Shown piece by piece: positions 3 through 28,849 of a stretch of DNA of 39,565 nucleotides. This DNA comes from an uncultured Bacteroidales bacterium. Lineage in GTDB: Bacteria > Bacteroidota > Bacteroidia > Bacteroidales > F082. The notes beneath the pieces were generated by a model. The model had not been told where the DNA came from. It saw only the letters and a program-made list of their open reading frames with translations, and searched no databases. The first letter of the stretch is position 1, and each line of letters starts with the position of its first letter. The stretch lies in contig CAMYXV010000008.1 in assembly GCA_947303055.1 (NCBI GenBank), positions 1 through 39,565 of the forward strand, read 5' to 3'. A program made the position numbers and the translations under genes.

Positions 3-1487
3 CTTTCAGAAAGAAACATCACTGAAAATCAAGTAATAAACCAAGTCGCCCAACTGAAAAGAGGCACACAATACGTCCAACTGATGCGCCCCGCCACCCT
101 CGGCGACGGCATCCTGCGTATGGATGAAGAAAAGGTGAACATGATGACTGCCGTCTTCGACGCCGACAAGGAGTTCTACCAGTTTACGAAGTTTGTGCCC
201 GCCTCAGGTGCGGCCTCGCGTATGTTCAAAGACCTTTTCGCTTTCGTCGAGACTGCCGAAGAGACCAAATTCACGGAGATTTTCTTCGCCCACATCCACA
301 ACTTCGCCTTCTTTGACGACCTCAACGCCGCCGCGAAACGCCTCAATGGTGCCGACATCGACAGCCTGCTTCAACAAGGCCGCAAGGTAGACGTCGTGAA
401 AGCCCTGCTCCTCGAAGACGGATTGAACTACGGTAAGCTGCCCAAAGCCCTGCTGAAGTTCCACCACTACCCCACTTTCAACCGCCTTGCCTTGGAAGAG
501 CATCTGGTAGAGGCCGCCCGCTATGCCACCGACAACGAAGGCGTGGCCAAGCTGCACTTCACCGTCTCGCCCGAGCATGAAGAGCCTTTCAAGAAGACCG
601 TAAACGCGCTGAAAGCCGATTACGAAAAGAAATACGGCGTGCGCTACGACATCACCTATTCCTGCCAGAAGCCTTCCACCGACACGGTTGCCATCGACGC
701 TGAAGGAAACTTGTTCCGAGAGGCCAACGGCAAGATTCTATTCCGTCCCGGCGGCCATGGCGCACTCATCGAAAACCTCAACGACCTCGGCGAGGAAATC
801 GTCTTCATCAAGAACATCGACAACATCGTGCCCGAGACCAAAGCGGAAACAACCATCGTTTATAAAAAGGTATTGGCGGGTCTCCTCCTCCACCTGCAGC
901 AGCGCACCTTTGAGTACCTTGAGATGCTCGACCAAGGTGCCGTTTCGGCAGAAGAGTTGGCCGAAGTCTATAGTTTCGCCAAAGAAGATTTGATGATTGA
1001 CATCCCCGACTTCGTGAACGGTTACAATGACATCGAGAAGATTGACTATCTGTACAATAAGCTCAACCGACCGATGCGCATCTGTGGCATGGTGAAGAAC
1101 GAAGGCGAGCCCGGCGGCGGTCCCTTCTGGGTGAAGAACCTGGACGATGAGGTGTCGCTGCAAATCATCGAGTCGTCGCAAATCGACCACAAGAACGCCC
1201 AACAGGAGGCCATCTTCCAAGGCTCGACGCACTTCAACCCCGTCGACCTCGTGTGCGGCTGTTGGAACTACAAGGGCGAGGCCTTCTGCCTGACCGACTA
1301 CGTGGATGCCAACACAGGCTTCATCTCCAACAAGTCGAAGGACGGCCGCGAACTGAAAGCCCTCGAACTACCCGGCCTTTGGAACGGCGCCATGGCCGAC
1401 TGGATCACCATCTTTGTCGAAGTGCCCATCGAGACCTTCAACCCTGTGAAGACGGTGAATGATTTGCTGAAGCCGATGCATAGTTAA
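3..1487 (+). CDS. DUF4301 family protein, 5'-truncated by the window edge
   Basis: The reading frame is open from base 3 and reads through the first ATG at 84. The residues before that ATG (LSERNITENQVINQVAQLKR) look like the usual N-terminus of DUF4301 proteins, so the gene starts left of the window and the ATG at 84 is internal. Recognisable stretches are PASGAASRMFKDL and FRPGGHGALIENLNDLGEE, typical of this Bacteroidota family; the second resembles a nucleotide-binding loop, but no reaction is established. No signal peptide or membrane segment is seen. Codons are GC-rich, unlike the genes that follow. It lies 38 bp upstream of the MscS gene and could be cotranscribed with it, but the change in composition suggests the downstream cassette arrived separately. 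The family call is firm; the function is unknown. Confidence 0.85.
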   Translation, partial: LSERNITENQVINQVAQLKRGTQYVQLMRPATLGDGILRMDEEKVNMMTAVFDADKEFYQFTKFVPASGAASRMFKDLFAFVETAEETKFTEIFFAHIHNFAFFDDLNAAAKRLNGADIDSLLQQGRKVDVVKALLLEDGLNYGKLPKALLKFHHYPTFNRLALEEHLVEAARYATDNEGVAKLHFTVSPEHEEPFKKTVNALKADYEKKYGVRYDITYSCQKPSTDTVAIDAEGNLFREANGKILFRPGGHGALIENLNDLGEEIVFIKNIDNIVPETKAETTIVYKKVLAGLLLHLQQRTFEYLEMLDQGAVSAEELAEVYSFAKEDLMIDIPDFVNGYNDIEKIDYLYNKLNRPMRICGMVKNEGEPGGGPFWVKNLDDEVSLQIIESSQIDHKNAQQEAIFQGSTHFNPVDLVCGCWNYKGEAFCLTDYVDANTGFISNKSKDGRELKALELPGLWNGAMADWITIFVEVPIETFNPVKTVNDLLKPMHS

Positions 1488-1525: not shown

Positions 1526-2590
1526 ATGGGAAAAAAGAGCAACTCGGAACCGAGAAGTTTGAGTCTTCATTTCTGGCTGAAGCCGATCATCTTTCTGACA
1601 CTTCTGTTGGCGTTGTGTTTGGTTCCGTTGTGCTGCGGAGTCTTCACCAAGACCGTTGAAGCGTCTTGGTTTCAAATATTGGCACTGACCTTGTTCATGT
1701 GCACTATCATTTCGGTTTGCAACAAACTGACGGACATCTTCATTCTACGCAAAAAAGAAAGCGGCATTACATGGTGCCAAATCTCCATTATCTTAGTCGC
1801 TGTATTGTGGATTATCGGATTCCTTCTCATCTTCAATATCCAAAAAGACTCCCGTTATTTCTTGGCTATAGGCATTGTGGGCACCATGCTCGGCTGGGTC
1901 TTCCAAGACACCCTGAAAGGCGTGGTAGCGTTCCTTCACGTGCGACTGAACCACTTGCTAAGCATTGACGATTGGATTCAGGTGCCTAAATATAACGTCG
2001 ATGGCGAAGTGAAGCGCATCACTCTGACGACGGTCACTGTCTACAATTGGGATACAACCACCTCATCCATTCCTACCAGTGTGCTGCAATCTGACCATTT
2101 TGTCAACCTCCAAAAGATGTCGGATGGAAAAACCTACGGACGACTGATGGAAAAGGCCTTTATCCTAGACACAAGCAAAATTCATCCCATCTCCACAGAT
2201 GAGGCCGAACAACTGAAACACGAAGAGGAGATGCGACATCTTGTTCCCGAAGAGGAAATCAAAGAAGGCGTCCTCAATGCCCACCTGTTTAGGCTTTACG
2301 TATATCACTGGATGATGAACAACCCACATGTGTCGCAACTTCCTCGTCTAGTAGTGCGCTGGATGGAGCAAAAAGAGACAGGGCTGCCTCTACAAGTGTA
2401 TGCATTCATTCTGGACACTAGTGTCACTGCTTTTGAATGGCAGCAATCGCTAATCATAGAACACATTGTGGAATCGCTAGATTGGTTCGGACTCAGACTC
2501 TACCAAAATCCGTCAAGTTATGACATCCACAGTTGCATGGACTGCCTGGCCAACAACGAGGTAACAAAAAGAAAGGAGACCGCATCATGA
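1526..2590 (+). CDS. MscS-family mechanosensitive channel, YbdG-like
   Basis: A 354-residue inner-membrane protein. Hydrophobic helices lie near residues 20-40, 48-68 and 83-103, followed by the MscS pore-lining helix and its exit around 112-139 (FLAIGIVGTMLGWVFQDTLK). The beta domain that follows (DDWIQVPKYNVDGEVKRITL, then TVYNWDTTTSSIPTS and VNLQKMSDGKTYGR) is the signature of the YbdG/MscM branch rather than of small MscS. Family members form heptameric channels that open under membrane tension or, in some branches, on ligand binding. The C-terminus (about 210-354) is a soluble mixed alpha/beta region. The stop codon overlaps the start of the RyR gene (ATGA), so the two are probably translationally coupled. 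In this setting it may be an effector or sensor channel rather than an osmotic safety valve; that is inference. Confidence 0.85.
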   Translation: MGKKSNSEPRSLSLHFWLKPIIFLTLLLALCLVPLCCGVFTKTVEASWFQILALTLFMCTIISVCNKLTDIFILRKKESGITWCQISIILVAVLWIIGFLLIFNIQKDSRYFLAIGIVGTMLGWVFQDTLKGVVAFLHVRLNHLLSIDDWIQVPKYNVDGEVKRITLTTVTVYNWDTTTSSIPTSVLQSDHFVNLQKMSDGKTYGRLMEKAFILDTSKIHPISTDEAEQLKHEEEMRHLVPEEEIKEGVLNAHLFRLYVYHWMMNNPHVSQLPRLVVRWMEQKETGLPLQVYAFILDTSVTAFEWQQSLIIEHIVESLDWFGLRLYQNPSSYDIHSCMDCLANNEVTKRKETAS

Positions 2591-3690
2591 GCAATCGTTT
2601 CTGCAAAGAAAAGCCTTTTGAGTATTTGAGGCGGAAAAATGGCGACAGGTTTTCGGAAGAAACAATCAAAAACTGGTATGTTGCGCGTGCATACGTCCTT
2701 GAAAAGCTGAAGAATGTAGCCATCGGTCAAGGGTCAAAAGAGCACTTACAGGTAGTGGTCACTAACGATAGTCCTTTGATGCTCTCAGTCGTCCGACATG
2801 TGGCATTATTGGCCCACTTTGCTAATTTCGACGAAACTCAGCCTAACAGAACCATAATCACCATCGTAAGCAGGGACAGGCAAATCGTTGAGGAGTTGGG
2901 AAAAGAAGAATATCTATGCAACCTTCCGACCTATTCCAAGCTTTCAGTCAACGGGTCAACGCCGATGAATACGGACTCTTACACTGACATTGAACTTCAA
3001 ATAGTGGAAACATGGCAAGATAGCGACTCTGTTGAAACCATTATGATGTCAGAAGACGACATAAAAGCATTCCTCAGCAACAAAAGCGAAGGAGACATCT
3101 ACAGTATCGATACTCGCAAGGCCGTCTTGTCCCAAAGAATGTATTCTTTAGGGTCGTGGATCGACAATCTACCCGCTGAAGACATCCATAACTTTGAACG
3201 ATACGCCATGGCCCTTAACGTCTTCCAACGCAGCCTTATAAGAAAGCCTATGAGCCAATTGGTTGACGAAAAGACATGGGAATCCGACTTAACTACTGTC
3301 AGAAATGGTTTGTCGAGCATTTTCTGCTCCGACTGTTTTGAGTCGAGGGCAGCTGGGGTGAAACGGTATGCCCAGACTCAGGGCAAGACCGAGAAAGAAG
3401 CGTGGAAAGAATGCGTCGAAGCACTGTCAAAGAGCGAACATGCCAGATGGGTAGTTGAAAAGCTCATCATGGGTTTCAGACCTTTAGACGAAAGAGAGCG
3501 CATGAAAGATGAGTGTTTGTTCGGAGACGAAAAAAGACGGTATCGCAACCAATTGAAAAAGGACCCTCGCGATCCCGTCCATATCGACGTGTGCTCCTTT
3601 GCTGAATTGCGCCGCATCAACCCCTTCGACATGAAATACGACAGCTTTTTGATGCTAGCCATACCTGGAATCTTAAAAAACTATTCATAA
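2587..3690 (+). CDS. RyR-domain protein with a Rossmann-like N-terminal region
   Basis: I chose the ATG at 2587, not the upstream in-frame ATG at 2533, because it forms an ATGA overlap with the channel stop codon and has an AGGAG ribosome site just before it. The product is 367 residues, with no signal peptide and no membrane segment. Residues about 45-120 alternate hydrophobic strands and helices (LQVVVTNDSPLML, RTIITIVSRD), like a nucleotide-binding Rossmann fold but without a clear GxGxxG. The C-terminal 90 residues (SEHARWVVEKLIMGFRPLDE, then HIDVCSFAEL and DMKYDSFLML) match the pattern of the RyR domain, named from ryanodine receptors and present in many bacterial signalling and conflict proteins. 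It is likely a cytoplasmic ligand-sensing partner of the channel or of the TIR protein; the ligand is not known. Confidence is good for RyR and moderate for the N-terminal fold. Confidence 0.65.
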   Translation: MSNRFCKEKPFEYLRRKNGDRFSEETIKNWYVARAYVLEKLKNVAIGQGSKEHLQVVVTNDSPLMLSVVRHVALLAHFANFDETQPNRTIITIVSRDRQIVEELGKEEYLCNLPTYSKLSVNGSTPMNTDSYTDIELQIVETWQDSDSVETIMMSEDDIKAFLSNKSEGDIYSIDTRKAVLSQRMYSLGSWIDNLPAEDIHNFERYAMALNVFQRSLIRKPMSQLVDEKTWESDLTTVRNGLSSIFCSDCFESRAAGVKRYAQTQGKTEKEAWKECVEALSKSEHARWVVEKLIMGFRPLDERERMKDECLFGDEKRRYRNQLKKDPRDPVHIDVCSFAELRRINPFDMKYDSFLMLAIPGILKNYS

Positions 3691-3733
3691 TCTTGGTTGG
3701 ATATTTGAAATCCAATTGACAAACACCTTCCCT

Positions 3734-4678
3734 ATGAAGAAACTTCTGCTTATCTGCGTCACATTACTTAGCCTCATGGCTACTGCCCAAACGCAGAAGG
3801 GCTATGTGAAAACCATAGGGCGTCCGGGAAAGCCAGGCATTAACTTAAGCAATGTGATGATTCAGGCAAAAGGGATGGTCAACCCTGTAATCAGCGACAC
3901 CACAGGTGAGTTCAACATTTCCATACCCAATAAAAACGATGGCGATCCTATAGAATTCTTACGCATTAAAAAAAGCGGATATGAACTAAAAGACAAAGGG
4001 TTGGTTGGCCGCCAACATGTTTGTTCCTCTCGCGTACCTATCATCATACAAATGGTGGATTGTCAACAACTGGCAGCAGACAAAAAACGTATCGAAGACA
4101 ATGCTTATCGTGTGGCTGAAGAAAACTATCAGAAAAAGTTGTCAAAACTTGAAAAACAGCAGCACGAGAAAGAAATTTCCGCCGAAAAATACCAGGAAGA
4201 ATTATTGGGGCTGCAGAATAAATACGAGCAGTATTTGTCACTGATTTCCGAAATGGCCGACCGTTACGCACGAACTGATTATGATCAATTAGACTCCATC
4301 GACATCCAGATTAACATTTGCATTGAGAATGGCGAACTCGATAAAGCCGATTCGCTCATCCATACGGTGTTTGACCCTGAGACTGTCGTTGAACGAAACC
4401 GAGCCGCAAAGCAGGAGATACAGGAAAGGATTGCCTTTGCACAAAGCATCATCGACAAAGCCAATGCTGACAAGGAAGCCATTCTACAAGACATCGAATA
4501 CGCAAAGAAAGTGACAGCCTTGTGCGAGAACCTCTCAAGAGAATACCTACTCTCGGGCCAACAGCAACGAGCCATTGATTGTCTGGAGAAAGCTTTGGAA
4601 ATCAAGAAAATCCTATACGGAGAAGAAAGTGTAGAAACTTCAGAAATAATACAAACCATCAATACTATAAAACCATGA
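3734..4678 (+). CDS. Exported TPR/coiled-coil protein with a carboxypeptidase-regulatory-like domain (short paralogue)
   Basis: A 314-residue protein. The ATG at 3734 is preferred to a TTG at 3716 because it opens directly on a signal peptide (MKKLLLICVTLLSLMATA, cleavage predicted before QTQ). Residues about 20-110 form a beta-rich module (GYVKTIGRPGKPG, NPVISDTTGEFNISIP) resembling the carboxypeptidase-regulatory-like or SusC N-terminal fold. Next comes a charged coiled coil (about 112-165: ADKKRIEDNAYRVAEENYQK) and a C-terminal TPR-like helical pair (LSREYLLSGQQQRAIDCLEKALEI). The protein is predicted to act in the periplasm. It is a paralogue of the next gene, which begins with the same module and continues into a long TPR array; the start and stop codons of the two overlap as ATGA. 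Function is unrecognised; a scaffold or sensor role is inference. Confidence 0.7.
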   Translation: MKKLLLICVTLLSLMATAQTQKGYVKTIGRPGKPGINLSNVMIQAKGMVNPVISDTTGEFNISIPNKNDGDPIEFLRIKKSGYELKDKGLVGRQHVCSSRVPIIIQMVDCQQLAADKKRIEDNAYRVAEENYQKKLSKLEKQQHEKEISAEKYQEELLGLQNKYEQYLSLISEMADRYARTDYDQLDSIDIQINICIENGELDKADSLIHTVFDPETVVERNRAAKQEIQERIAFAQSIIDKANADKEAILQDIEYAKKVTALCENLSREYLLSGQQQRAIDCLEKALEIKKILYGEESVETSEIIQTINTIKP

Positions 4679-6888
4679 AAAAACTGATTTACATTATACT
4701 ATTACTGCTATCGCTTTCTTCCCAGCCTTTGTTGGCTCAGACCCAAAAAGGTTATGTGAAGACATTAGGCCGTCCCGAAAAAAAAGGAGAAGCCCTTGCT
4801 GGAGTATCCATCAGAGTAAAAGGAGAGCACAATCCCGTTTTAAGTGATAATGACGGTACATTTTCTTTACTGTTGCCCGGTTTAAAAAACGGTGACGCAT
4901 ACACCCTTCAGCAAGTGCAAAAACCAGGATACGAGCTGAACGAGACAAACTTAATAGGACAGCCAAATGCTTTTTCCGACAAAGTGCCGCTAACGATTGT
5001 CATGGTTTCATCCCTACAACTGCAAGCCGACAAACAACGTATCGAAAACAACGCCTTCAAAGTTGCGGAAAAAAACTACACCGCCAAATTACAGCAACTG
5101 GAAAACCAAATCAACAGCAATTCGATTTCTATCGAGCAATATCAAGAAGAGCAGAAAAAACTACTAAGCAAGTTCGAAAATTATCAGTCGCTCATCGACG
5201 GCCTTGCCGAACATTTTGCCCATACCGATTATGACGGACTAGATGAAAAAGACAAAGAAATCAATCTCTGTATTGAGAATGGCGACCTTGAGCGTGCCGA
5301 CTCGCTCATCAACCTTCTTTTTGACCCTCTCGACGTGCTCAAGCGCAACAAAGACGCTCTTGCCAAAATTGATCGACAAATCGCTCAAGCCAAAGGCATG
5401 CTAAAAAAGGCCAATGAAGACATGGCTGCTATTCAAAAACAACAGCAGAAAGATGCAGAATACCTTTATCAGCTTTACACCATCGCGTTGGCAACACTTG
5501 ACGATGAAAAAGCGCAATATTACATTGAAACAAGAGCGGAACTCGACACTACCAACGGAAGATGGCAAATCGATGCTGCTACATTCTTTTCCAGTCACTT
5601 ATTGTACCAAAAATCAATAGTCTATTTCTCAAGAGCTGTAAACATCTTCCGCAGTGAGAACCGAGAATATGACCTTTCATACGCACTTTATGGCTTAGGT
5701 TCCCAATTGCAAGCGGCAGACCATAACCATAAGGAGAAAAACCCTGCAGCAGAAAACGCCCTAAATGAAGCTGTGGAAATACAACGGCGGTTGGCCGAAA
5801 CCTATCCTTACGTTGAGCAAAGTCTTGCCGTCATGATGATTAACCTTGGCGAACAATATCTTGCCACAGAGCGATATGAGGAAAGCAAACGTATCTTGGA
5901 AGAAGCCGTGGAAATACTACGCCGTGTAGATGAGAACAACCCGTCCGACCAATTCATTTATCGGTTAAGTCATGCCTTGAATATCCTTGGCGAGCTAAAC
6001 CTTACCTTAAAACAATACAAGAAGAGCGAGGACTGTTTTACGGATGCATATAAATACAGCATTAAGGTGTCCAACAACAATCCTGACTATGAATATGCCG
6101 TAGCGGAAGTATTGACAAAGATGGCAGCCCTTTATGACGAGACCAAAAGAAGCGAAAAATGCAAGGAAGTATCCAAAAACGCCATAAACATCTATCGTCG
6201 ACTTGCCGAAACAAAACCGCGTTTCTACGAGCCGTATCTCGCCAGCGCACTCGTCACATTAGGAACGCGAATGGTCAATTCCATTGATTTCAATAAAATA
6301 GACAACAAAACCAATAAAAATAATAAAGAGATGGCATTATTAGTTGAAGCGATTGGTTATATTGACGAGGGAACAAAAATCTATAAACAAAACATTTCAC
6401 TTGGTCCTATGTATGAAGAGCAATACGAGATGGCTTTGATAACGCTCGCCTATCTTTATATGGCTTTTGACACGGACAAGGCTTATATAACTCTAGAAGA
6501 TCTCCTGCCTCTAATGAAAAAACACTATCAAGACATAGATTACGTCAACCCTCTTTTCAGCGACAGATATGAGCAAATAGAATTCTATCTGCTTGCGTTG
6601 AAATACCAATCCGTTATCGGCTTGTATAAAAACCAACCTGAAAAATCGGAGCAATACGCCAAAGAGATTCTGTCGGTAAACCCATTCATTAAAGAAATTA
6701 TTCCAACTCTTGCCGCTTCACTTTTGATTCAAGGGAAATACGAAGAGGCCGAAAAATTGTGTCGTAACAATAAAGGCACGCTCAAAAATGACTTCAATCA
6801 ATTGTTGAATGGTCTTAACAAAGCGAATCTCATCCCCAAGGAGCACCAAGATGAGGTAAAACGCATCAAGAAAATACTCAAAGAATGA
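4675..6888 (+). CDS. Exported long TPR protein with a carboxypeptidase-regulatory-like domain
   Basis: The start is the ATG at 4675, overlapping the previous stop codon; the upstream in-frame ATG at 4579 would bury the signal peptide (MKKLIYIILLLLSLSSQPLLA, cleavage before QTQ). The product is 737 residues. It repeats the layout of the upstream paralogue: beta module (GYVKTLGRPEKKGEALAGVS), coiled coil (ADKQRIENNAFKVAEKNYTA), then from about 285 a TPR solenoid with clear units (LYGLGSQLQAADHNHKEKNP, MINLGEQYLATERYEESKRI, ALNILGELNLTLKQYKKSED) running to about 720 (ASLLIQGKYEEAEKLCRNN). It is predicted to be periplasmic, where it could present binding surfaces to the periplasmic part of the TIR protein encoded 32 bp downstream. 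No enzymatic motif is visible. The domain layout is clear; the role is inferred from neighbours. Confidence 0.75.
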   Translation: MKKLIYIILLLLSLSSQPLLAQTQKGYVKTLGRPEKKGEALAGVSIRVKGEHNPVLSDNDGTFSLLLPGLKNGDAYTLQQVQKPGYELNETNLIGQPNAFSDKVPLTIVMVSSLQLQADKQRIENNAFKVAEKNYTAKLQQLENQINSNSISIEQYQEEQKKLLSKFENYQSLIDGLAEHFAHTDYDGLDEKDKEINLCIENGDLERADSLINLLFDPLDVLKRNKDALAKIDRQIAQAKGMLKKANEDMAAIQKQQQKDAEYLYQLYTIALATLDDEKAQYYIETRAELDTTNGRWQIDAATFFSSHLLYQKSIVYFSRAVNIFRSENREYDLSYALYGLGSQLQAADHNHKEKNPAAENALNEAVEIQRRLAETYPYVEQSLAVMMINLGEQYLATERYEESKRILEEAVEILRRVDENNPSDQFIYRLSHALNILGELNLTLKQYKKSEDCFTDAYKYSIKVSNNNPDYEYAVAEVLTKMAALYDETKRSEKCKEVSKNAINIYRRLAETKPRFYEPYLASALVTLGTRMVNSIDFNKIDNKTNKNNKEMALLVEAIGYIDEGTKIYKQNISLGPMYEEQYEMALITLAYLYMAFDTDKAYITLEDLLPLMKKHYQDIDYVNPLFSDRYEQIEFYLLALKYQSVIGLYKNQPEKSEQYAKEILSVNPFIKEIIPTLAASLLIQGKYEEAEKLCRNNKGTLKNDFNQLLNGLNKANLIPKEHQDEVKRIKKILKE

Positions 6889-6920
6889 CTTGTGTAACAA
6901 CAACTTAATGAAAATTCGAC

Positions 6921-8051
6921 ATGGAGCCACAATATAAATACTTTGCCTTCATCAGTTACAACTCGAAGGACACCGCTTGGGGCAAAAAGTTACAGAAGAA
7001 GCTGGAGCACTACAAACTGCCCTCCACGCTGTGTAGCGAGCATGGTTGGGAACGAAAACCTATCAAGCCTGTGTTCTTCGCCCCAACCGACATTCAACCT
7101 GGAGGCTTGTCCAACGAGTTGCAAGAACGGCTGAAAGCATCGCAACACCTCATCGTCATCTGTTCACCCAACTCAGCCAAATCGGAATGGGTAGGCAAGG
7201 AAATCGAGTTCTTCTACAACTTAGGACGGACCAACAATATCCACTTTTTCATCGTGGAAGGTTCTCCTCACAGTGGCAATCCCGATACGGAATGCTTTAA
7301 CCCTGTCATCGACAAGTTGGGACTTCCCGAAATCCTTGGCGCCAACATCAATGAAAAGATTTACCGCAGACCATGGCTCAACCGGGAACGAGCTTATGTG
7401 CAATTGGTCTCCAAATTGCTTGGCGTGGAGTTTGATGCTATTTGGCAACGACATAAGCGACAACTCATTCGCAAGATTATCGCATGGAGTTTAGGGAGCA
7501 TTGCGGTTATCGCTGCTCTGGTTATTGTTTGGCGAAACAGCCAACCCTTTGACGCAGAAGTGCATTTAAACGAAGCATCTCCCCATAATGCACAGCTTCC
7601 ACCATTGCACAACGCCATTGTCACACTGACCTTGGATAACGAATCCAAAACCGACACTATTCCCTCTTTGGACGGCAACTGCATTTTTACCAATATCCCT
7701 CACCGGTTTTTGAACCAAAATGTTCAAATCACTTTGACATGTCCAAATTGGCTCAATACCGACACGGTTGTTGCTCTATCCCCAAACCTGACTTTGGACC
7801 TATTCAGAGACCCTGCTGTTTATGGCGACATCCGTTTTAAGTTGTGGAACATCAATGAAGAAAAAACCTTATCACAAGTAAAGGTTGACATAAATGGATT
7901 TGATGCCTTTTCTGACGAAAATGGAATAGTATCGTTGTTTATCCCCTTGGAGAAACAACAAAAGGCATACAAAATCAAGGCAGACCTTATAATGCTCAAC
8001 GATTCCGTTTTCATGCCTTGTGGAGAAAACGATGTGGTACTGGTGGAATAA
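6921..8051 (+). CDS. TIR-domain protein with one membrane helix and periplasmic beta-rich modules
   Basis: A 376-residue protein. Residues 6-165 are a TIR domain: strand A and box 1 (YFAFISYNSKDTAWGKKLQK), a BB-loop region (DIQPGGLSNELQERLKAS), strand HLIVICSPNSAKS, and SEWVGKEIEFF with W90 and E94 at the place where NAD-cleaving TIR domains carry their catalytic glutamate. A single membrane helix follows at about 185-204 (KIIAWSLGSIAVIAALVIVW), and the remaining 170 residues hold two predicted Ig-like or carboxypeptidase-regulatory-like beta units (around 212-300 and 305-376). The expected orientation is TIR in the cytoplasm and beta modules in the periplasm. It ends 6 bp from the convergent transketolase-LOG gene and is the last gene of the cassette. 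TIR enzymes cleave NAD or make cyclic-ADP-ribose-type signals; whether this one is catalytic is inferred from E94 only. Confidence 0.85.
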   Translation: MEPQYKYFAFISYNSKDTAWGKKLQKKLEHYKLPSTLCSEHGWERKPIKPVFFAPTDIQPGGLSNELQERLKASQHLIVICSPNSAKSEWVGKEIEFFYNLGRTNNIHFFIVEGSPHSGNPDTECFNPVIDKLGLPEILGANINEKIYRRPWLNRERAYVQLVSKLLGVEFDAIWQRHKRQLIRKIIAWSLGSIAVIAALVIVWRNSQPFDAEVHLNEASPHNAQLPPLHNAIVTLTLDNESKTDTIPSLDGNCIFTNIPHRFLNQNVQITLTCPNWLNTDTVVALSPNLTLDLFRDPAVYGDIRFKLWNINEEKTLSQVKVDINGFDAFSDENGIVSLFIPLEKQQKAYKIKADLIMLNDSVFMPCGENDVVLVE

Positions 8052-8057
8052 TCTTCC

Positions 8058-9938
8058 CTACTTCCCCTCCCTAAACCTCACAATCGCCTCGATAATCTCA
8101 TCGTTGTCATCGGAAATCGTCAGCAACAGGTTCTTGAAGACGCCACGATCGCTTAAGTCCTTGAGCATCGTATAGGCAGGCATGTATTTCGTGTAATATT
8201 CCTTGCCCATGAAGATCATCGGACTAGCATAACCTACACTCTCATAATGGTTTTGTCCTGCATCTTGGAAGATTTCCTGCATGGTACCTGCACTTCCCGG
8301 CGTATAAATGATGCCGCCCTTGGCCACCGTGACGATACCATCCTCGCGAATACTGTTGTCGAAGTATTTGGCGATGTCGGTAGCAAACGGCGTTGACGGC
8401 TCATGACCATAATACCAAGTGGGTATGGCCAGACTGCGATACTCCGATGTCAGTGGGAAAAGTTCCATTACTTCAAAGGACCGACGCAACCAACCTTCGT
8501 CTTTGTACGTTGGCGCTGAAGAGAGAATGAGCAAAGCCTCCTCCACCTCACTGTCGGGACGCCCCGCCATGTAAGCGCCGAGATGCGCTGCCTCCATGGC
8601 ACCAGGCCCACCGCCCGTGACCATCAAGCGACCCATCTCAGTGAGCTTCTTGCTCAGGTACACGATTTGACGGTATTGCGCGTCATCGCGCCGCTTGGCA
8701 TGACCGCCCATGACACCAATCACCATCTTTTCATCATAGTGATCCAAGAGACGATACAAGAAATGAGTGATAAAATGATCATGCAACGCCCTTGCTAGAG
8801 TCTCGCGTACACCATGTCCACGCTTTCCGTAACTGATGTAATGGTCATACACCTTAGTGTCGAAACAGGATTTGAAAGTCTCATCCTTATGATAATCATA
8901 GCCATTATAAAGTATCTTGCTATTATACAAACATTTAGGATATGTTGAAAAAGGTTTCCCCATCTCAGGGATAAACAAGCTGAGGTCGGCCTTGGATACA
9001 TCCTTGAGGATACGCTGAACAATGCCAGCAGCGTCCAATCCGAACTTGTGCATCAAGGTTGCAGGCTGGCCCGACTCTCCAAATTGGTCGTTCATACCAA
9101 TACGATGCACCCTGATGGGATGGTTTTCGGAAAGGTATTCTGCCACTGCACTCCCCAGTCCACCTGCAATTTGATGCTCTTCCACCGTGAAAATCATACG
9201 GGTCTCATCAGCAGCTTTTTCCAAGATTTTGCCATCCAAAGGCTTGATAGTATGCATATTAATAACACGAACAGATACACCCATTTGCTTCAGCAGGTGT
9301 GCCGCTTTGAGGCATTCCCAAACCTCATGACCCGTAGCCACAACGGTAATATCGGTTCCATCCCGCATCAGTTGGGCCTTCCCGATCTCAAAATCCTGGT
9401 TCTCATCCGTAAAATCCGGCACCGCCTCACGCCCAAAACGCACATAGACTGGACCTTCACATTCCAGAATAGCCTTTTCGGTAGCAATTTTGGCTTGTGT
9501 GGCATCGCAAGGCGAGATAACCGTCATGTTAGGGAGCACACGCATGACGGCAATATCTTCCAAAGCTTGGTGCGTGGCCCCATCAGGACCTACCGACACT
9601 CCTGCATGAGCACCTCCGATGACAACATGCACATTATTGTAACACACCGAGATACGAATCTGGTCGTTGGCACGGTGGGCTGCAAACACACCATATGTAC
9701 TGAATACTGGAATCTTTCCGCTCAACGCCAATCCAGCCGCCGTTGCCACAGCATCCTGCTCGGCAATACCCATGGAGAAAAACCTTTCAGGGAAAGCCTC
9801 TGCAAAAAGATTCATTCCCACCGAGTTGGTGATGTCGGCACCCAAACCGACTACCCTATTATCTTTTTGAGCCGCAGCAAGAACGCCCTCGCCGAAACCT
9901 GATTTTGTGGGTTTGTTTCCTTTGTTCGTGTAATTCAT
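8058..9938 (-). CDS. Transketolase C-terminal subunit fused to a LOG-family domain
   Basis: A 626-residue open frame. Residues 1-316 are a complete transketolase C-terminal subunit: the pyrimidine domain with SMGIAEQDAVATAAGLA (E60 is the TPP-activating glutamate) and the C-terminal regulatory domain (FTVEEHQIAGGLGSAVAEYL, RIGMNDQFGESG). After a linker of about 50 residues, positions 370-626 are a LOG/lysine-decarboxylase-like Rossmann domain with VMGGHAKRRDD, VTGGGPGAMEAAHLGAY and PGSAGTMQE (547-555); the last is the LOG motif PGGxGTxxE with the second glycine changed to serine. LOG enzymes hydrolyse nucleoside monophosphates to base and ribose 5-phosphate, itself a transketolase substrate, so the fusion makes metabolic sense (inference). 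The N-terminal half needs the subunit encoded just upstream on the same strand. The usual family length for the C-terminal subunit alone is about 310 residues. Confidence 0.85.
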   Translation of the reverse strand: MNYTNKGNKPTKSGFGEGVLAAAQKDNRVVGLGADITNSVGMNLFAEAFPERFFSMGIAEQDAVATAAGLALSGKIPVFSTYGVFAAHRANDQIRISVCYNNVHVVIGGAHAGVSVGPDGATHQALEDIAVMRVLPNMTVISPCDATQAKIATEKAILECEGPVYVRFGREAVPDFTDENQDFEIGKAQLMRDGTDITVVATGHEVWECLKAAHLLKQMGVSVRVINMHTIKPLDGKILEKAADETRMIFTVEEHQIAGGLGSAVAEYLSENHPIRVHRIGMNDQFGESGQPATLMHKFGLDAAGIVQRILKDVSKADLSLFIPEMGKPFSTYPKCLYNSKILYNGYDYHKDETFKSCFDTKVYDHYISYGKRGHGVRETLARALHDHFITHFLYRLLDHYDEKMVIGVMGGHAKRRDDAQYRQIVYLSKKLTEMGRLMVTGGGPGAMEAAHLGAYMAGRPDSEVEEALLILSSAPTYKDEGWLRRSFEVMELFPLTSEYRSLAIPTWYYGHEPSTPFATDIAKYFDNSIREDGIVTVAKGGIIYTPGSAGTMQEIFQDAGQNHYESVGYASPMIFMGKEYYTKYMPAYTMLKDLSDRGVFKNLLLTISDDNDEIIEAIVRFREGK

Positions 9939-14471: not shown

Positions 14472-14540
14472 AGACGCAAAATTTTGCGTCTCAAAAACGT
14501 AAAATGCAATAATAACCAGAGACGCAAGATTTTGCGTCTC
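14468..14540. repeat. Two RAYT-associated palindromes upstream of the transposase
   Basis: A perfect 22-bp palindrome with arm GAGACGCAAAA occupies 14471-14492, and a second copy with one mismatched position occupies 14519-14540. The two sit 26 bp apart just before the transposase start. The GTAG at the edge of copy 1 (14468-14471) provides the stop codon of the preceding gene. This pairing of a palindrome family with an adjacent HUH transposase is how REP/RAYT systems look. Confidence 0.85.
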
Positions 14541-14558
14541 TACAACAAACGAAAAACA

Positions 14559-15152
14559 ATGGCAGACCTATATAAAAACAAATACCGAATTCCGACCGCA
14601 CGCGCCACGTGGCATGATTACAATGGCGGATCCTATTTTGTAACCATGTGTACAAAGAACCGTGAATGCTATTTCGGTCATATCTCAAATGGGGAAATGG
14701 GATATTCAGACCTTGGACAATCTGTAATCTATTGTCTCGAACAAATTCCAGCACATTTCCCACATGTGGAAATTCCTGTATTCATCGTGATGCCCAACCA
14801 TATCCACGCCATAATTATCATCAATGCCCTCGACCCCAACATGGTAGAGACGCAAAATTTTGCGTCTCTACATAATGAAACCAAACAAAAATTCGGGCCA
14901 CAATCCAAAAACCTTGCTTCTGTCGTGAGGGGATTCAAAATCGGCGTAACCAAATACGCCAACGACCAGAATTTTTCATTCGCATGGCAACCTCGTTTCC
15001 ATGACCACATTATCCGTAATCACAATGAAATGGACCACATTGCCGATTACATTGAAAACAACATAATCCTTTGGAAAGAAGATTGCTATAATGGTCTCAG
15101 AAGTCAACCGATAAGCAATAATCCAGAAAAACCGTATCTAAAGTTTTTCTAA
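14559..15152 (+). mobile_element. REP-associated tyrosine transposase (RAYT, Y1/HUH family) gene
   Basis: A 197-residue protein. The ATG at 14559 (MADLYKNKYRIPTARATWHD) is used; a longer frame to 14484 merely translates the upstream palindromes. Family features are GGSYFVTMCTKNRECYFGHI, the HUH motif in MPNHIHAIIII (H81-I-H83) and a C-terminal helix FHDHIIRNHNEMDHIADYIE with the candidate catalytic tyrosine in DYIENN. RAYTs are single-copy, domesticated relatives of IS200/IS605 transposases that act on nearby palindromic repeats through single-stranded DNA. One palindrome lies inside this gene at 14844-14871 and is translated as part of VETQNFASLH (residues 96-105) without breaking the frame. 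It falls between the HUH motif and the tyrosine helix, so whether the enzyme still works is uncertain. Confidence 0.85.
14844..14871. repeat. Third RAYT palindrome, inside the transposase gene
   Basis: A perfect 28-bp palindrome, arm GTAGAGACGCAAAA. It is the longest of the three copies. It lies within the transposase coding sequence, in a frame with no stop codon, and looks like a self-insertion. Confidence 0.9.
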
Positions 15153-28302: not shown

Positions 28303-28849
28303 TTACTTCACCTCCACCAGCTCCAATTCAATCTTCAAAGGCGAATAAGGTGGCAAGGTCTCGCCCAAGTCAACCTCACCGAAAGCCAAGGCCGACGGCG
28401 TAATCAAGGTGACCTTCGCACCAGGTGCCATGGTCATCACGGCCTCCTCGATGGCGGCAATCATCTGGCCGCTGCCCACTTTGAAGTACATCGGACGCTC
28501 GTAGTCGTAGCTCGATTCCAGCTGCTCGTCATCCAGGTTCTTCAGCACATAATGGACCGCCACTTCGTCGCCCCATTGGGCCACATCGCCCTCGCCTTCT
28601 TCCTGGCGAAGGATGTAAAGGCCGGTTTCCGTCGGGGTTTCAGTGATACCTTTAGCCTTGATGTAATCGGCGATGGCCTTGCTCTCCAAAGCCAACTTGC
28701 GGTCTCTCTCGGCTTCCTTCTGGGCTTCCAAAGCAGCCTGACGCTTTTCGTAGGCCGCCTTGTCCATCACTCGGTTCATCTTCAACTTGACGACCAAAGG
28801 CGTGTAAGGAAGGATAAACTGCTCGTAACCTGTGCTGTCAAAGGCCAAC
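28303..28849 (-). pseudogene. 5'-truncated copy of the FKBP lipoprotein gene
   Basis: It encodes the last 180 or so residues of the FKBP protein at 33366-34679, starting abruptly at AFDSTGYEQFILPYTP with no proper start codon (only a TTG), no signal peptide and no lipobox. Bases 28397-28849 are identical to 33460-33912 over 453 bp, while the 3' end (28303-28396) differs at many positions, so this end belonged to a different allele. Immediately right of 28849 the sequence changes to the ligase tail. It still encodes a whole C-terminal FKBP domain, so translation is possible but unlikely to yield an exported protein. Confidence 0.85.

Follow-up and report, generated by a model that had tools for sequence, protein, structure and literature searches.

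What would a bacterium use a channel subunit, a soluble RCK-like/RyR-like protein, two probably exported TPR proteins and a TIR protein for, when their genes follow one another on one strand? The question is raised by a stretch of 39,565 nucleotides (the window) of contig CAMYXV010000008.1, here C8, in the 58%-complete draft genome GCA_947303055.1 of an uncultured gut bacterium of the Bacteroidales. A preliminary description had read the five genes (Table 1) as one cassette for membrane signalling or defence, and the order it gave, with two ATGA overlaps and gaps of 43 and 32 bp, is borne out by the coordinates. The analysis points to a modular membrane signalling locus with Thoeris-like logic, in which a TIR protein would signal to a RyR receptor and the receptor would act on a channel, a reading to which we give about an even chance; defence as its purpose is plausible.

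The RyR-like protein and the TIR protein

As a single sequence, the RyR-like protein has no match in Pfam, NCBIfam or PADLOC and a best E-value of 0.48 against the PDB, so its identity could be read only with the help of relatives. An iterated profile search across the loci collected 55 sequences carrying its C-terminal region (50 unique). A few of them match the RyR family PF02026 directly; the set as a whole matches PF02026 members with a profile-profile probability of 95.4% and a pairwise E-value of 1.9e-8. Proteins of about 97 aa that stand alone at related loci are RyR members (e.g., L018, PF02026 3e-34; L, G and C denote loci, genomes and contigs) and match the Bacteroides thetaiotaomicron entry 3nrt (3.3e-31) as well as animal RyR repeats. 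According to a 2026 preprint (PMC13232231), the R12/RyR domain of the phage protein RyDEP binds and cleaves 2'/3' cyclic ADP-ribose (cADPR) via H75, W78, H100 and D117. All four, at the same intervals (+3, +25, +42), are found in the stand-alone proteins (H38, W41, H63 and D80 in L034). Their counterparts in the window domain, mapped by order and spacing, are H285, W288, H332 and D352, the two histidines being 47 residues apart versus 25 in RyDEP. Across the 50 unique domains, the first histidine and the tryptophan are kept in 50/50, the second histidine in 49/50 and the aspartate in 46 of the 47 aligned. On this sequence evidence the window domain is a divergent RyR (R12) domain that keeps the ligand residues, and binding would be expected by extension from its phage relatives. 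It shares the H-x2-W, H and D ligand residues with phage RyDEP and PF02026, but is divergent, chromosomally encoded and placed beside TIR or channel genes.

The N-terminal part of the same protein is Rossmann-like, and its homologue is the second RCK-like region in longer relatives (mostly ~690-720 aa), which combine N-terminal transmembrane (TM) stretches, an RCK-type region and a RyR-like domain (TM-RCK-RyR). No TM stretch is present in the window protein, whose match to these long relatives takes in their second RCK-like region and the RyR domain. The RCK region of L017 matches Slo-like_RCK at 2.3e-5, and the profile of the long relatives matches Slo1 at 1.3e-4 over the TM plus RCK region but DMI1 only at 0.075. 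Compared with the RCK-gated channels Slo1/BK and DMI1/POLLUX, the bacterial relatives carry an added C-terminal RyR domain; the window protein has neither the pore nor the first RCK, and its partner is a separate MscS. They share with the animal ryanodine receptor, whose R12 repeats belong to the same domain family, the placement of that domain on a channel protein; the bacterial pore, in contrast, is Slo/DMI1-like or MscS-like and the gating part RCK-like. The structure model of the window protein is of low confidence over the RyR part, and its fold comparison spanned residues 17-180 only; the absence of RCK or R12 structures among the best 50 matches listed excludes nothing. Soluble RCK-RyR-like proteins of ~520 aa without TM stretches also occur (L076, L088, L090, L126), and the one in L090 is followed by trypsin-like and weakly kinase-like genes, neighbours which suggest that the RyR receptor may serve other effectors too.

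Glu94 of the TIR protein is invariant across the alignment of 35 TIR sequences, window included. The model of the protein (pLDDT 84, pTM 0.51) consists of the TIR domain, a TM helix and two beta-sandwich regions; the TIR domain resembles SPARTA, SARM1 and, lower in the list, EcThsB2, and the beta-sandwiches, which are presumably periplasmic, resemble pilin/CNA-B domains. The matching N-terminal modules claimed for the two TPR proteins are real, TPR1 and TPR2 being 49% identical over their first ~250 residues. For a possible module common to these N-termini and the C-terminus of the TIR protein, the match (hhalign, 62-67%) extends over 33 columns only. A second class of TIR proteins, likewise located near RyR genes, carries WD40 repeats (4/4 scanned); of four examined for TM stretches, two have one after the TIR domain (L110, L129) and two have none (L112).

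Two separable modules and their linkage

The channel gene is MscS-type as first described, given its Pfam match and hydrophobic stretches, and it forms a constant pair with the RyR-like gene. The 99 same-genus genomes, the window's own included, hold 21 close MscS copies (at least 46% identity; other MscS rows are 23-37% identical) and 21 near-full-length RyR-like copies (at least 43%), and the two genes are adjacent on one strand in 21/21 cases, which could be 20/20 since contigs C1 and C5 of the 8% contaminated G326 are probably one locus twice. Where L073 and L074 have MscS plus RyR, a TM-RCK-RyR gene stands at the identical site in L078. The TPR genes closest to those of the window (TPR1 77-79%, TPR2 61-62%, accompanying TIR 67-68% identical) sit with TM-RCK-RyR in L077, L103 and L104 and with MscS plus RyR in L109, where the MscS gene was missed by the crude gene caller, which lost some overlapping genes, and recovered by a later search. 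Because one form stands in for the other at one site and related TPR and TIR partners go with either form of channel, the MscS-RyR pair appears to be a RyR-gated channel that has been split in two and given a different pore.

The TIR gene keeps other company. Among 34 TIR loci of the genome_contigs collection (a count that leaves out L050, a partial match), a TPR gene lies within 300 bp of the TIR gene in 23, and 19 of the 20 well-flanked loci have one somewhere. An MscS of the window kind is present at only 4/34, several of the fetched stretches ending at contig ends. Conversely, no window-type TIR was detected within 15 kb at 11 of the 21 MscS-RyR pairs, some of which are on short contigs. 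The five-gene cassette is therefore rejected as the unit of organisation: all five genes largely occur independently of one another except within the MscS-RyR pair, and the locus is made of two separable modules, MscS with the RCK-like/RyR-like protein (A) and one or more TPR proteins with the TIR-TM-beta-sandwich protein (B). The complete set recurs twice, in identical order at L109 of G326 (a draft genome with 8% contamination) and rotated at L118 of G373, and recurrence in these two genomes places it beyond chance.

TIR and RyR genes are nonetheless linked. For 26/49 PF02026 matches, versus ~0.6% expected, the nearest TIR gene belonging to the window or TIR-WD40 class is no more than 15 kb away, a figure inflated by shared ancestry and obtained after dropping 24 of 77 TIR rows (weak or C-terminal-only) and 3 of 52 PF02026 rows (below cut-off). 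A RyR-domain gene is near 24 of 27 same-genus TIR loci (32 near-full-length TIR genes minus five without long flanks); of the three others, L122 is a true miss, in L121 the TIR was lost in gene calling, and in L128 the TIR lies ~1.3 kb from the contig end. The corresponding count is 19/34 for genome_contigs and 15/20 with ample flanks; these samples overlap with one another, and the chance rate was computed for the PF02026 count only.

Table 1. Coordinates and supporting evidence for the five genes and the two edges of the site that holds them.
Feature	Position	Strand	Evidence and parts
DUF4301 gene, left edge of hotspot	84..1487	+	PF14134 5.6e-209; ends 38 bp before first cargo gene
MscS-type channel subunit, 354 aa	1526..2590	+	PF00924 (MS_channel_2nd) 5.8e-9; hydrophobic N-terminal stretches
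Soluble RCK-like/RyR-like protein, 367 aa	2587..3690	+	Profile searches with relatives; RyR (R12) domain ~231-364
TPR1, 314 aa, probably exported	3734..4678	+	Signal-peptide-like N-terminal stretch by eye; single TPR match below Pfam cut-off
TPR2, 737 aa, probably exported	4675..6888	+	TPR_12 4.2e-12, several TPRs; CarbopepD_reg_2-like N-terminal module 1.2e-3, below cut-off
TIR protein, 376 aa	6921..8051	+	PF13676 (TIR_2) 2.5e-11; Glu94; TM ~186-204; beta-sandwiches ~210-294, ~303-375
Transketolase C-terminal gene, right edge of hotspot, convergent	8058..9938	-	Gene calls; hotspot reading

Proposed signalling from TIR to channel, and its alternatives

The proposed sequence of events begins at the envelope, where the exported TPR proteins would detect some event and pass it on through the two beta-sandwiches of the TIR protein, presumed to lie in the periplasm. 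The cytoplasmic TIR domain, whose catalytic-type glutamate is observed, would then convert NAD+ to a signal of the ADP-ribose type, with 2'- or 3'-cADPR as the likeliest product, and the divergent RyR domain, with its observed ligand residues and by extension from the phage relative in the preprint, would bind that signal. Binding would shift the RCK-like part and open the MscS-type pore, and the resulting ion flux would arrest or kill the cell; the opening step is proposed because the MscS-RyR pairing is constant and a TM-RCK-RyR protein replaces the pair at the same site. Similar roles had been assigned beforehand (periplasmic TPR proteins, a TIR protein across the membrane, a RyR protein reading a nucleotide, a channel as output). 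These roles fit the invariance of Glu94, the kept RyR residues, the TIR-TM-beta-sandwich build, the constant MscS-RyR adjacency and a linkage of TIR to RyR that greatly exceeds the estimate for chance; the identity of the signal, the gating and the purpose are extrapolated.

Thoeris combines a ThsB TIR protein with a ThsA effector of the SIR2-SLOG or TM-macro type (in part after PMC11204291). The window resembles it in having a TIR protein with a conserved glutamate near a gene for a plausible receptor of an ADP-ribose isomer plus an effector, but here an RyR/R12 domain joined to an RCK-like part would be the receptor, a channel the output and an exported TPR protein the sensor. PADLOC ThsB models match the window TIR weakly (best 1e-6), and none of the five genes has a Pfam or PADLOC match to SLOG, macro or another established ThsA-type receptor, so the locus is filed as Thoeris-like only.

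Type IV Thoeris consists of TIR and caspase. The window has no caspase gene; a caspase-cluster gene is found at five related loci, beside the TIR gene in four (assigned by clustering, with one member scanned). At L030, L032, L034, L037 and L042, a conserved set made up of a caspase with BspA-type LRR and an uncharacterised ~285-aa protein surrounds the TIR gene (clustering; L034 members scanned), and a metallophosphoesterase-PQQ gene joins the set in four. Elsewhere a PrsW-type intramembrane protease gene directly follows the TIR gene (L039, L041, L043, L045) or a TM-RCK-RyR gene (L134).

Several observations weigh against this signalling route. Besides the MscS-RyR pairs without a TIR noted above, G358 (100% complete) has the pair with no match to the window TIR, although another TIR_2 protein is present; TIR_2 proteins are common in these genomes (7/8, and 11/12 in another sample, with six in the window's own), so that the signal could come from elsewhere. 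Five of the 20 well-flanked TIR loci lack a RyR gene, L027 lacks both RyR and TPR genes, and L080, at the same chromosomal site as the window locus, has a TPR gene without TIR or RyR. In the wider order, where 13/295 genomes have matches to the RyR protein and 16/295 to the TIR protein, some of them weak, TIR_2 lies within 5 kb at 2/10 distant RyR-channel loci, and a stand-alone RyR gene directly adjoins the channel gene at L133, L135 and L136 and is separated from it by a single gene at L131. Since many RyR-channel loci thus lack a TIR gene, and four distant ones come with a stand-alone RyR gene, the RyR-channel may be an independent ligand-gated unit exploited by TIR modules. These same distant pairings, together with MscS-RyR pairs lacking TIR and TPR genes (L091-L093), TM-RCK-RyR plus stand-alone RyR without TIR (L082, L086) and a defence neighbourhood that is not clear, would suit envelope or osmotic stress signalling, with the RyR-channel reading an ADP-ribose metabolite of the host and the TIR and TPR genes as regional add-ons. 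We consider this unlikely, as a conflict system accounts better than housekeeping for the empty hotspot sites, the mosaic gene sets, the copies shared across families (a TIR 76% identical in G003) and the SIR2-TIR, nSTAND1 and caspase genes linked to such loci.

The remaining objections concern the RyR domain itself. Low model confidence over the RyR part leaves the geometry of its pocket unproven, and, by analogy with the hydrolase RyDEP, these domains could use their shared H and D to degrade the signal instead of sensing it. The RyR proteins would in that case be off-switches that remove the TIR product by hydrolysis or by sequestering it; cell killing would then result from loss of NAD+ to the TIR, with MscS relieving osmotic stress. 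In favour of this, the catalytic dyad of RyDEP, H75/D117 (PMC13232231), is kept in the window domain (H285, D352) and in 14/14 unique stand-alone RyR proteins. We nevertheless regard it as distinctly improbable: RyR domains sit on RCK-like parts and are TM-fused in many relatives, the build of a ligand-gated channel, and of eight homologues tested in the preprint six bound the signals and none besides RyDEP itself degraded them.

A tentative extension of the TIR-RyR-channel reading is a bacterial cADPR-gated channel system: TIR proteins governed by periplasmic sensors would make a cyclic ADP-ribose isomer, one type of RyR R12 receptor would open two unrelated kinds of pore (Slo/DMI1-like and MscS), and the stand-alone RyR proteins of hosts and phages would act as dampers; equally tentatively, it would be a prokaryotic counterpart of the link between cADPR and the ryanodine receptor proposed in animals. 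If this is true, RyR/R12 is an added receptor class and a ligand-gated channel an added output for TIR immune signalling, a small expressible system becomes available to ask whether ryanodine-receptor R12 domains are channel-gating cADPR receptors, and there is a class of host pathways that phage RyR proteins could disrupt. In the literature searched, which covered few subscription papers, the only paper among those listed that names both Thoeris and RyR is the RyDEP preprint (PMC13232231), and an earlier description is possible; neither PMC7159879 nor PMC9503650 mentions RyR or ryanodine.

A variable chromosomal site and its surroundings

The five genes occupy a hotspot between a DUF4301 gene and a convergent transketolase gene. 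DUF4301 was found in 88 of the 99 same-genus genomes, and 41 of its sites were read by six-frame translation (the window plus 40 chosen mainly as best-matching; the close G307 C5 and G314 were left out). The transketolase gene was reached within the fetched stretch at 27/41. Among these readable sites, 7/27 are empty (2-45 bp between matches), 15/27 have a RyR-domain gene and 8/27 a window-type TIR, which RyR-like and TPR genes accompany in all eight. A housekeeping operon is rejected on account of the empty sites, and a fixed universal locus, which the preliminary description had named as counter-evidence, is likewise not what is found, the modules standing at other sites elsewhere (same partner genes at L116-L120, L123 and L124). 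Copies in G003, a member of another family, are 71% (MscS), 69% (RyR) and 76% (TIR) identical in a locus apparently split over two contigs, and the G003 stretches scanned contain neither DUF4301 nor transketolase; this close match away from both edge genes suggests transfer between lineages.

Other hotspot cargo includes TerB-like genes and a secreted C10 peptidase, which at L079 and L088 is large and combines InlB-type repeats with a Por sorting tail, and is probably similar at L081, judged by gene size. Beside its MscS-RyR, L088 also encodes a TIR-type protein that includes FGE and WD40 parts, and at L090, not read through to transketolase, a TM-RCK-RyR gene is followed by SIR2-TIR and nSTAND1. 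Such variety, with an unrelated secreted peptidase among the cargo and a first cargo gene 38 bp past DUF4301 in the window, could mean that unrelated accessory genes have gathered at a hotspot and are transcribed from the DUF4301 promoter without forming a pathway. The invariable MscS-RyR pairing (21/21), the presence of RyR with 8/8 hotspot TIRs and the return of the same partners at non-hotspot sites make this very unlikely.

The GC content of the five genes is 0.41-0.46, compared with 0.55 for DUF4301 and 0.49-0.51 for the transketolase genes. Their reported AT-richness is thus a strong contrast on the DUF4301 side only, and the case for a compositional island is weak.

A search for defence genes compared neighbours of such loci (100 of 274 eligible proteins sampled, 95 scanned) with a control (100 of 169, 80 scanned) from which 20 proteins, mostly repeated DUF4301 and transketolase genes, had been removed by hand and which was itself not clean, with cargo at L070, L079, L081, L091, L092 and L102. 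Among the best 25 families listed, the neighbours include at most three members for SAVED-TIR and two for methyltransferase families, and the control includes PDC-S, viperin-like and CARF-AAA-HTH members. With listings that cover the best 25 of 224 and of 60 families, no total is given and no enrichment is claimed; many neighbour families are metabolic (among the best 25 of 106). A classical defence island gives no clear signal in this sample against its imperfect control, which also counts against defence as the purpose of the TIR-RyR-channel route.

On the phage side, a search at E 1e-3 gave RyR-type matches for 215 of 50,697 phage records, with at least 80% of the query covered in 17. Such matches are also present in 59 fetched viral contigs, of which four are 56-60% identical to the Bacteroidales stand-alone RyR, among them proteins of L144 (60%) and L145 (56%) that are candidate counter-defence genes; 6/8 scanned neighbours at these two loci match PHROG families, and L145 has a Lar-like restriction-alleviation protein. 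The viral RyR proteins are thus candidate decoys or degraders of a host signal. A pattern scan of the viral_contigs collection for a viral origin of the TIR gave 15 stretches, none confirmed as a relative.

Farther along the window are two repeats, 28304-28849/33367-33912 (546 bp, 98%) and 28850-29408/24779-25337 (559 bp, 91%). They abut exactly at 28849/28850, where a copied 3' part from an FKBP-like gene (identified by eye) meets a copy of the start of a TPR/regulator-like gene, and the junction is one of recombination or of assembly. A REP-associated (RAYT-type) transposase-like gene, also recognised by eye, lies at 14484-15152.

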